The translations under genes were made by a program, and so were the position numbers. Below, one piece after another: positions 15,797 through 36,930 of a stretch of 37,619 bases of DNA. The notes under the pieces were generated by a model. That model made no database searches. It was not told where the DNA came from and saw only the letters and a list, made by a program, of their open reading frames with translations. The first letter of the stretch is position 1; each line of letters opens with the position of its first letter. Origin of the DNA: Actinomycetota bacterium. GTDB lineage: Bacteria > Actinomycetota > Actinomycetes > Actinomycetales > Microbacteriaceae. The stretch spans positions 1 through 37,619 of the forward strand of contig JAIUOH010000001.1 in the NCBI GenBank assembly GCA_020161315.1. Direction: 5' to 3'.

Positions 15797-16103
15797 GCCT
15801 CAGACGGGTGGGCGTCGGCTCCCTCCGTCCCCGCTGCACCCCCCTCTCCTTCCCCCCGTCTTCCCCCCTCCTTCGGTGTCCCCACCCTTCCCCCTCCCCG
15901 CGGTGTTTCCTCCCGGCCGGCGTTCCCGCTCTCCCTCCCCGCGTCCCCACCCTTTCCCTGAATTCGGGTCAGAAAAGCACGGTATTGACGCGTTCACACC
16001 CTGCATTTGCGACCCGAATTCATTGAGAGATTGGGGCGACGCGGGTAGTTGGTCGCGGGGCGTGGGATCAGGCCAGGCGGGCGGCGGGTGGCAGAATGGG
16101 GCG
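15797..16103. other. Gene-free stretch: pyrimidine-rich tract and long imperfect hairpin
   Basis: Roughly 15820-15957 is a run of C and T on the plus strand with almost no A. It is followed by a perfect 12-bp inverted repeat, TGAATTCGGGTC (15959-15970) and GACCCGAATTCA (16011-16022), whose arms extend inward with partial pairing for about 13 more bases. The hairpin is 160 bp after the hspR stop and could terminate that operon. No coding potential is convincing here even though a frame happens to stay open across it. Confidence 0.6.
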
Positions 16104-17501
16104 GTGACCGAATTGCCCGCGCCGCTCGCCGAACTTGAGGCATTCTTTGCGCAGCTCTCGCGTGAGCCCGACTTCGATGCGCCCGAGCTGCAGGCTTATG
16201 ATGCGGCCGATCTGCTGCTGTTACAGACCGCGCTTGAATGGCATGATCCCGCTGGTCGAGCTTGTCGAGACCAAGGAGCGGTGGCTGATCACCTCGACAA
16301 GCTCGATGATCGCAGCGGCGTATCTCCCGATCCCGTCTCGGGATCGGTTCATTTCGCGAAGAACGGCGCAGTGGTTACGATCGGCGACCGCCACGGAGCA
16401 AGCCGCTCAGGGCAAAGCATCGCTTTGCGCGGCGTATCTCCCGATCCCGTCTCGGGATCGGCTCGTTTCGCGAAGAACGGCGCAGTGGTTACGATCGGCG
16501 ACCGCCACGGAGCACTTACCCTGGGCGCAGCCAAGTTGCTCGGCGCAACGGGCATCAAGGTGCACCAAGACCCAGTGCTCTTTGAGCGGGCGCTCGCCGC
16601 AAACGCTGAGCGGCTTGGGCTGGGTGATGATCCCACGTCGGTGTTTACCCATCACCCGCTTGGCGAGCAACTGCTCATAGGCGCGAAGCTTGTGCTGCTG
16701 CAACTGCCCAAATCGCTCGCCGAGCTCGAAGAGATCTCGCACAGTGTTGCGCGCTACGCTGACCCAGACGTCGTGCTGCTCGCGGGCGGCCGCGACAAAC
16801 ATATGAGCCGCGGCATGAACGAGCTGCTTGCCCGCCACTTCGAAGATGTCAGCGCGGGGCTCGGGTGGCGCAAGGCGCGTGTGCTCACGGCACGCTCGCC
16901 GAAGACTGCTGCGGTGCTCGGTGCCGCGCCGTTTCCTCGGTTCGCGGGGGACCCAGATCTCCGGTTTCAGATGGCCGCGTTCGGCGCGACCTTTGGCGGG
17001 GCGACCCTCGACCACGGCAGTCGGCTGCTGCTGCGCACCCTGCGCGAGCAGTTACCCGCGGCCGCACCGAAGCGCGTTGTCGATATCGGCTGTGGCAACG
17101 GCGTGCTCGCCGTATCGGCGGCGCTCGAATGGCCCGAAGCGCAGGTAATCGCGAGCGACCAGTCGCTGGCTGCAGTGCGGGCCACGCTGCTGACCGCGCA
17201 GCGCGCGGGCGTCGACGGGCGAGTGGCCGTGCACCGCGCCGATGCCACCGAGGCGGTGCCCGACGGCTGGGCCGACCTCGTGCTGCTGAACCCTCCGTTT
17301 CACACGGGCTCGACCGTGCATGTCGGTGTGGGGCAACGGCTCATTCGCGCGTGCGCGCGTGCGCTCGCGCCGGGCGGCGAACTGCTCCTCGTGTTTAACA
17401 CGCATCTCGGCTACCGCCAGCTCGTCGAGCGCGAAATCGGGCCGACCCGCCAGCTCGCCCGCGATCGTACCTTCACTGTGCTGGCGGCCACCCGCCGCTG
17501 A
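16104..17501 (+). CDS. RsmC/RlmG-like guanine-N2 methyltransferase carrying an in-frame repeat insertion
   Basis: A 465-residue class I methyltransferase of the kind that methylates guanine N2 in rRNA. The SAM-binding motif VVDIGCGNGVLAVSAAL is near residue 327 and the catalytic LLNPPFH near 396, the NPPF(H) signature of RsmC/RlmG. Before it lies a degenerate methyltransferase-like N-terminal domain (DRHGALTLGAAKLLGATGIKV; FTHHPLGEQLLIGAKLVLLQLP), as in that family. Residues about 50-137 are unusual: they translate a palindromic TCGAGCTTGTCGAG element and two in-frame copies of an 86-bp unit ('GAVVTIGDRHGA' appears twice), probably lengthening the protein by 60-70 residues. The frame is open throughout. 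I chose GTG 16104 because the family starts there; the frame upstream is not protein-like. Whether the enzyme still works is unknown. Confidence 0.85.
   Translation: MTELPAPLAELEAFFAQLSREPDFDAPELQAYDAADLLLLQTALEWHDPAGRACRDQGAVADHLDKLDDRSGVSPDPVSGSVHFAKNGAVVTIGDRHGASRSGQSIALRGVSPDPVSGSARFAKNGAVVTIGDRHGALTLGAAKLLGATGIKVHQDPVLFERALAANAERLGLGDDPTSVFTHHPLGEQLLIGAKLVLLQLPKSLAELEEISHSVARYADPDVVLLAGGRDKHMSRGMNELLARHFEDVSAGLGWRKARVLTARSPKTAAVLGAAPFPRFAGDPDLRFQMAAFGATFGGATLDHGSRLLLRTLREQLPAAAPKRVVDIGCGNGVLAVSAALEWPEAQVIASDQSLAAVRATLLTAQRAGVDGRVAVHRADATEAVPDGWADLVLLNPPFHTGSTVHVGVGQRLIRACARALAPGGELLLVFNTHLGYRQLVEREIGPTRQLARDRTFTVLAATRR
16256..16306. repeat. REP-like hairpin inside the methyltransferase gene
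   Basis: TCGAGCTTGTCGAG (16256-16269) and its perfect complement CTCGACAAGCTCGA (16293-16306) form a 14-bp stem. The same palindrome occurs after the SpoU gene at 19562-19608. It resembles dispersed intergenic repeats of actinobacteria, but here it lies in coding sequence, in frame. Confidence 0.85.
16315..16514. repeat. 86-bp direct repeat, in frame, 114-bp offset
   Basis: 16315-16400 and 16429-16514 are identical except for two bases. The offset is 114 bp, exactly 38 codons, so the reading frame is kept. Each copy begins with a palindrome, CCGATCCCG-tct-CGGGATCGG. The 28-bp spacer holds a further small palindrome, GCAAAGC-atc-GCTTTGC. Confidence 0.95.
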
Positions 17502-17558: not shown

Positions 17559-17643
17559 GTGAACTCGGTGCCGTTTGCCGAACTCGTCTCCTTTGCGCCG
17601 TATAAACGGGCCGAGTTCGGTAAAAGGCGACGAGTTCGGCGGG
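17559..17643. repeat. 85-bp palindromic repeat, copy A (before the aldo/keto reductase)
   Basis: This copy shares about 70 of 85 bases with copy B at 18720-18804, in the same orientation. In copy A the right part pairs with an internal arm (GCCGAACTCGTC with GACGAGTTCGGC), giving an 18-bp stem with one mismatch. It ends 63 bp before the reductase start and 58 bp after the methyltransferase stop. Confidence 0.85.
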
Positions 17644-18666: not shown

Positions 18667-18719
18667 GCGCCTGCTTTGGCCGTATGCACCTCCTGACGTG
18701 CTCAGCCGTTCACTTCTTC

Positions 18720-18804
18720 GTGAACTCGGTGCTGTTCACCGAACTCGTCGCCTTTGCCACGTTGAAACGGGCCGGGTTCGGCGAACAGCACCGAGTTCGG
18801 CGGG
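18720..18804. repeat. 85-bp palindromic repeat, copy B (after the aldo/keto reductase)
   Basis: Same family and orientation as copy A. Here the outer parts pair: GAACTCGGTGCTGTTC near the left end matches GAACAGCACCGAGTTC near the right, extending to a stem of about 25 bp. The element lies between the reductase stop and the GTG start of the SpoU gene and could act as a terminator for the former. Confidence 0.85.
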
Positions 18805-19561: not shown

Positions 19562-19608
19562 TCGAGCTTGTCGAGATGTAGCAGCTCGCCTGATCTCGAC
19601 AAGCTCGA
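19562..19608. terminator. REP-like hairpin between convergent genes
   Basis: TCGAGCTTGTCGAGAT (19562-19577) pairs perfectly with ATCTCGACAAGCTCGA (19593-19608) around a 15-nt loop. It stands between the ends of the SpoU gene (19552) and the convergent PLP enzyme gene (19646). It is the same family as the hairpin inside the methyltransferase gene. A bidirectional terminator role is likely from position. Confidence 0.75.
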
Positions 19609-36860: not shown

Positions 36861-36930
36861 CTGCGCGCTCCTGCGCGCTCCCGCCCGCTCCCGCGCGCTC
36901 CCGCCCGCTCCCGCGCGCTCCCGCCCGCTG
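36861..36930. repeat. Seven tandem 10-bp repeats
   Basis: Seven copies of the unit CYGCSCGCTC follow head to tail; after the second copy, units with G and C at the variable position alternate, giving a 20-bp higher period. It is a candidate variable-number locus. Confidence 0.9.

Follow-up and report, generated by a model that had tools for sequence, protein, structure and literature searches.

In-frame palindromic repeat and flanking duplication in an RlmG/RsmC-like methyltransferase gene of Leucobacter

How can palindromic repeats and a long direct repeat lie near the start of a conserved methyltransferase gene while its reading frame stays open? The gene was found in a window of 37,619 nt (the whole stretch of DNA analysed). 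It begins with GTG at 16104, ends with the stop codon at 17499-17501 and comprises 465 codons with zero internal stops, in agreement with the initial annotation, which had seen neither a stop nor a frameshift. We consider the best explanation, with a probability of roughly 0.78, to be that a short, non-coding, GC-rich mobile repeat of Leucobacter, here called E, which folds into two hairpins and is accompanied by a duplication of neighbouring DNA (X), entered the RlmG-like gene in an ancestor, and that the resulting array was homogenised later.

Composition of the repeats within the gene

The coordinates of all features are collected in Table 1. A perfect inverted repeat in the coding DNA (14-nt arms, 100% complementary, 23 nt apart) had been assigned to the same family as an intergenic palindrome, and this assignment held: the exact arms, used as a pattern, occur at four places in the genome, including 16256-16306 and 19562-19608. 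A similarity search placed this palindrome, F1, at 19 other places in the window's own genome; we take it to resemble REP/BIME sequences. The direct repeat of 86 nt was likewise recovered as described, with 84/86 identical positions and a spacing of 114 nt, i.e., 38 codons.

Comparison of the whole region with the window's own genome revealed two dispersed families, F1 and E, and some stretches of the region match repeats scattered over the rest of the genome, with E-values down to 4e-14. The 86-bp unit is composed of a 33-bp piece of E and 53 bp of the host gene, and a complete E lies between the two host copies. Since E spans the junction between the 86-bp copies, these copies are not the unit. 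Further upstream, 16315-16350 matches positions 35-70 of the E query at 97%. X encodes FAKNGAVVTIGDRHGA, of which the GDRHGA part is present once in homologues. Hairpin 1 of the window copy of E consists of an outer stem, GGAG..CTCC, followed by GCCGC/GCGGC and GCAAAGC/GCTTTGC; hairpin 2 is CGATCCCG-TCT-CGGGATCG. The earlier view that repeat DNA had become protein sequence is correct in that the repeats are read in frame in an open gene, but the duplicated part is mostly host sequence, and two repeat families are involved.

Because of the dispersed matches, and because a second assembly has X-E-X at the identical codon, we regard the layout as beyond chance. Tandem Repeats Finder (TRF) did not list the X-E-X array in the window or in locus L101; the array comprises only about 1.75 units. 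The assembly is a draft of 74 contigs and repeats are error-prone, which would speak for an assembly artefact, a possibility named in the initial annotation. It is contradicted by the second assembly, in which the same architecture is present with a different X and, as in the window, in frame, and an artefact is thus extremely improbable.

Table 1. Positions of the methyltransferase gene and its repeats in the window
Feature	Position	Strand	Basis
RlmG/RsmC-like methyltransferase gene bearing the insertions	16104..17501	+	465 aa, open frame, Pfam, NCBIfam, fold match
F1, REP-like palindrome (arms 16256-16269/16293-16306)	16250..16312	.	inverted-repeat search, own-genome matches
E0, remaining 3' portion of an E copy, with hairpin 2 and some of hairpin 1; precedes X1	16313..16347	+	
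X1, first of the two copies of the 53-bp host coding segment (FAKNGAVVTIGDRHGA)	16348..16400	+	
E, complete element	16395..16466 (core 16401-16461)	+	covariance model R1, 82.4 bits (this copy was among the sequences used to build R1); covariation; own-genome matches
X2, second host-segment copy, continuous with the conserved gene (GDRHGALTLG...), forms a predicted strand	16462..16514	+	
First copy of the 86-bp repeat (part of E0, and X1)	16315..16400	+	
Second copy of the 86-bp repeat (part of E, and X2), 114 bp downstream	16429..16514	+	
F1, intergenic copy	19562..19608	.	

The host protein and a shared site in a second species

Like RlmG and RsmC, the predicted protein has a two-domain fold; its best PDB match is RlmG (4dcm; TM 0.87 by target, 0.68 by query), and Pfam places an MTS domain at residues 295-460. 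It differs from both by a long insert ahead of the first strand predicted in the N-terminal domain, and the curated equivalog scores were not reached (NCBIfam RsmC, 89.2 bits versus a cut-off of 295; RlmG, 79.1 bits versus 468). By modelled fold and MTS domain, the host is an RlmG/RsmC-like methyltransferase; the initial naming as an rRNA methyltransferase agrees with fold and domain, whereas the curated level of either family is not attained.

Structure prediction, proposed at the outset as a check, was performed with AlphaFold2 (32 sequences, mean pLDDT 84.8). Residues 57-119 have a pLDDT below 50 and are predicted to be disordered, as is X1, and the first strand of the N-terminal domain (residues 128-131) is built from X2. 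Owing to this low pLDDT, the strand supplied by X2 and the RlmG-like fold kept in the model, the insert looks like a tolerated disordered loop. Further, codons 1-41, 5' of the insert, yielded a dS of 0.75 and a dN of 0.11 (dN/dS approx. 0.15), and the part from X2 onward a dS of 0.73 and a dN of 0.15 (dN/dS approx. 0.2). Such similar constraint on both sides argues that both belong to one maintained protein and, judged by these substitution rates, the reading frame most likely runs through the insert. We infer that the insert is translated and that the cell produces a functional long protein.

Aligning homologues, another check proposed at the outset, indicated that the segment around residues 50-137 is an insertion relative to them: it is absent in 42/44 aligned rows (the partial sequences L034 and L037 were left out), and the two rows with it (L010 and L039) represent one genome, Leucobacter sp. 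UBA1945. One homologue (L032) has a different short Gly-rich stretch at this position and another (L038) aligns poorly. Among the rows aligned, F1 is found in the methyltransferase of the window's species only; the UBA1945 gene is without it.

In UBA1945, E follows the same codons (GDRHGA) and is 58/61 identical to the window copy. Its two X copies are 111 bp apart, compared to 114 bp in the window's species, and both are in frame; of E0, only the last 10 nt are kept. Within a species, X1 and X2 agree at 96% (window's species) or 94% (UBA1945), compared to only 58-64% between species. In 20 columns, X is alike within and different between species; 0 columns are orthologue-like and 5 fall in neither class, and both UBA1945 copies have a 3-nt gap in common. 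The E copies of the two species share the outer stem (GGAG/CTCC) and hairpin 2, which are unlike those of the other 33 copies aligned. At a second shared E site, the end of an amine-oxidase gene (E 62/72 identical), the counts are 5 versus 0 columns with 25 others; this site is weaker, as an N-stretch in one copy inflates the last number.

Species-specific X copies could have arisen by concerted evolution or by separate new insertions in the two lineages. Independent entry, with local X duplicated each time, would account for them directly, and several genomes indeed carry E at ruvC and tRNA sites, the E types at ruvC being different. However, the near-identity of E between the species, the outer stem and hairpin 2 common to both and the piece of a preceding E retained in each favour a single entry followed by concerted evolution, and we consider independent entry improbable. 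The likeness of the X copies would then be due to unequal exchange or gene conversion; the methyltransferase gene is the one clear site for such homogenisation.

The E family, its flanking duplications and its target sites

E is a dispersed family of structured repeats with a body of approx. 70 nt (65% GC in the window copy). In the aligned copies, hairpin 1 is built from stems of 4 bp (outer), 5 bp and 7 bp, with a 5-nt bulge between the last two and a triloop at its tip; hairpin 2, located 3' of it, is variable in sequence. Covariation was scored for hairpin 1 in 27 sequences, with 97.5% of cells paired and 9/16 pairs changed on both sides, compared to a mean of 4.6 in shuffles. The covariance model detected 23 matches in the window's genome and E in 18/41 Leucobacter genomes. 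Searches over more than 40 genomes were performed with stricter filters, under which E was found in 2/249 genomes of a draw from the family, one being the window's, and in 1/396 of a draw from the order, again the window's; absence outside Leucobacter is, therefore, provisional. The sole match outside the genus in these draws (L209, genome G116, from another genus of the family) is a tandem of E copies, spaced approx. 114 bp, right at a tRNA-Leu gene. No match was obtained in plasmids and phages using blastn or in viral contigs using two exact patterns, and a search of Rfam 15 gave nothing above gathering score for E, with only tRNA exceeding its own. This distribution suggests that E is mobile.

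E is in frame in three unrelated protein genes. Besides the methyltransferase, it occupies residues 490-513 of an AcrB-type RND transporter (L137, genome G052), where it is absent in 15/15 homologues compared, and the linker of an SMC protein (L196, genome G044), a less clear case given that this linker varies among the 15 homologues compared. Four further E loci have long open frames across E, in which no Pfam domain was found.

To characterise the insertion scar, the 100 nt 5' of E were compared with the 150 nt 3' of it for 79 copies in 76 loci (77 distinct sequences), a score of at least 15 being counted as a flanking repeat. The set derives from 94 model hits in 82 loci, fewer than all places in the genus-wide search, after exclusion of 15 (partial or weak hits, one duplicate locus, extra array copies and one at a contig end), and the 79 copies are not independent, as several belong to one array or occupy orthologous sites. 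E is flanked by direct repeats of 18-100 nt in 51/79 copies, compared to 2/79 with swapped flanks and 4/316 in a wider swap. In 46 of these 51, no more than 4 nt separate the end of the upstream copy from the start of E, and the downstream copy starts -6 to +68 nt relative to the end of the model hit. The other 28 copies, among them those in the RND transporter and SMC genes, have no flanking repeat of this score, so the duplication is either not obligatory or lost with age. When a distant X copy, the sign of a longer element, was sought in these 28 loci, only L136 emerged as a candidate; L008 matched its own hairpin. L136 holds a 17-nt near-copy of the sequence 5' of E, 661 nt downstream, which could mark a longer element or be due to chance.

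E recurs at the T-arms of tRNA/tmRNA genes. The T-arm motif TCGAAC or TTGAAC is present at 22/79 junctions compared to 114/15,800 random windows, and ARAGORN identified a tRNA or tmRNA gene in 20/23 loci scanned, which had been chosen mainly for T-arm-like junctions. The tRNA genes include those for Gly, Val, Ser, Leu, Arg and Thr, and in the cases inspected the downstream copy of X keeps the gene whole. One locus (L198) has E adjoining a tmRNA gene, with part of the T-arm and the sequence after it duplicated. The 5' end of ruvC (identity confirmed by Pfam in the two loci tested) carries E in four Leucobacter genomes (L107, L155, L166 and L207), with the first ruvC codons duplicated upstream; the E types differ among these sites.

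TRF, applied to 24 loci, listed eight arrays around E, the window site not among them. One of these (L008, period 43 bp) is a tandem of hairpin 1 only; E+X arrays were listed at 7/24 loci, with 1.8-4.2 copies and 95-99% matches. Behind a tRNA-Gly gene (L156, 1501-2065), 4.2 copies of a 165-bp E+X unit are found with 98% matches. The arrays suggest that E+X units multiply in tandem, which provides a plain route to homogenisation and makes length variation possible. The latter might even be programmed, as suggested in the initial annotation, with recombination adding or removing 38-codon units and thereby tuning or switching the methyltransferase; these arrays, the X copies being alike within species and the units being in frame in both species would agree with this. 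On the other hand, two X copies are present in each of the two genomes with the site, with no length variant among them, the insert is predicted to be disordered and belongs to the N-terminal domain rather than to the MTS domain, and 5/7 arrays are located at tRNA genes or ruvC. We thus consider programmed length variation distinctly improbable.

Possible mode of insertion and comparison with known systems

According to the main reading, E would favour certain insertion sites, and in many cases a long stretch of the DNA flanking it on one side would end up duplicated (X). In the common ancestor of the two Leucobacter species, E would have entered the RlmG-like gene at the loop that immediately precedes strand 1 of the N-terminal domain. 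As E plus X is a stop-free multiple of three and X2 would have restored the native strand, the enzyme could have been preserved, with E becoming a disordered insert. The array E0-X1-E-X2 may then have been homogenised within each species by recombination between direct copies, and F1 may have entered the same loop later in the window's species.

The fixed junction together with a long, variable duplication suggests nicking, copying and a distant second cut. In the mechanism we prefer, at odds of about one in three, a specific nick would be made, its 3' end extended through E, and a second cut at variable distance would create X. An origin by reverse transcription, SINE-like and mobilised in trans, is a possible but tentative alternative. 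A junction fixed on one side with a long variable target duplication on the other would fit target-primed copying, and the conserved terminal hairpin of E also speaks for such an origin; the SINE-like combination is seen at E in 46/51 duplications, within 4 nt, with 28/79 copies lacking a repeat. However, RVT_1 was detected in 6/41 Leucobacter genomes, namely 5/18 with E and 1/23 without, and is absent from the E-rich genomes G044 and G052.

Integrative elements that target tRNA genes join at the T-arm and leave the tRNA gene whole, since its 3' end is present twice. E is similar in both respects but has a body of approx. 70 nt only, no integrase was recognised adjacent to it, its X is target-local and it occupies protein genes as well. 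E might be a folded attachment site joined at T-arms by a tyrosine recombinase, with integron-like mobility; the T-arm sites and tandem units resemble tRNA-targeted integrative elements, and folded single-strand sites are similar in kind to attC. Against this, X is whatever sequence lies at the given target, extending past the gene end at several tRNA genes, and hence was hardly carried in. Its length varies between 18 and 100 nt, no integrase was recognised among the genes beside E, and plasmids, phages and viral contigs gave no match in the searches described above. We consider a recombinase rather unlikely.

A third possibility is that ordinary REP sequences, moved by a RAYT (Y1) transposase, were combined with chance slippage. 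REP/BIME sequences, F1 and E are all many-copy, dispersed palindromes, and F1 looks like a REP. In contrast to RAYT-associated REPs, E has long flanking duplications fixed at one end at many sites, and Y1_Tnp was found in 0/41 genomes of the genus, the same search being positive in 5/14 control genomes. This combination is very improbable. Neither the reverse transcriptase nor the Y1 transposase tracks E. No autonomous partner was recognised among the ORF clusters beside E either: open stretches of at least 90 aa in 76 E loci were clustered, and the 40 largest clusters listed, which derive mainly from shared sites (ruvC and tRNA-bearing regions), contained no recognisable mobile-element gene.

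Tails of E complementary to the target were also scored. A score of at least 18 was reached in 18/79 copies compared to 2/395 shuffles, although tails of different tRNA sites are alike, swapped tails score high as well (up to 24.2) and some high scores (L115, L189, L155) stem from palindromes inside X. Read row by row, 18/79 copies have, after hairpin 2, a tail complementary to the X end apart from 4-6 additional nt (score at least 15) in a bulged layout much like hairpin 1; 16/18 are at tRNA or tmRNA T-arms and 2/18 at the amine-oxidase gene. Target recognition by pairing would agree with such tails, but none is seen in the window copy (score 13.6), and 16 of the 18 are at tRNA/tmRNA sites with shared sequence. 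It is with more doubt than confidence that we propose E as the first of a bacterial class of elements that pick targets by base pairing, insert by nick-primed copying and duplicate up to 100 nt, such that tRNA, tmRNA and protein genes survive and, in the methyltransferase, E and its duplication now form a uniform in-frame protein segment.

In-frame palindromic repeats are already known from Rickettsia, whose palindromic elements (RPE) lie within unrelated protein genes, according to the portions consulted of PMC2229807 and PMC10969869. Compared by description, E is similar in being a small, dispersed palindromic repeat in frame in such genes. Unlike RPE as described there, E is 65% GC (window copy), often at tRNA genes and often accompanied by 18-100-nt duplications; it is also shorter, approx. 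70 nt versus 105-146 nt in the excerpt of PMC2229807, whose table enters the RPE target duplication as "?". Bacterial MITE-like repeats (Correia/NEMIS, ERIC/RU-1, RUP, RU-2/3) are described in the same excerpt as non-autonomous, shorter than 200 bp, structured and sometimes intragenic, all of which applies to E. Most of them are rich in A+T, carry terminal inverted repeats and TA ends and duplicate their target (PMC2229807, in part), whereas E is GC-rich, and its duplication is long and varies in length (18-100 nt), unlike the short one of fixed length typical of MITEs. Stem-loop families were surveyed in 40 genomes (PMC2267715, as far as excerpted). In the open-licence literature searched, no earlier description was found of E, or of any small repeat whose duplications at T-arms are long and variable.

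Small palindromic repeats are common in bacteria and, to our knowledge, the way most of them move is unknown. E leaves an unusually informative scar, i.e., one fixed junction and a long, variable target copy, and since it recurs naturally within one genus, at tRNA, tmRNA and ruvC as well as at further protein genes, the mechanism is testable. The window case would illustrate how a conserved enzyme can take up such an element and stay intact, since the duplication rebuilds the interrupted strand, and how the direct copies may then evolve together.

Other repeats were seen in the window. An imperfect inverted repeat of 46 nt (74%; 15945-16036) lies directly upstream of the methyltransferase gene, and a tandem repeat with a 10/20-bp unit, GCGCGCTCCC, at 36863-36929. 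Two similar intergenic, palindrome-rich stretches (GAACTCGG...CCGAGTTCGG) at 17561-17640 and 18719-18800, 3' of neighbouring genes, possibly represent a third repeat family of this genome.
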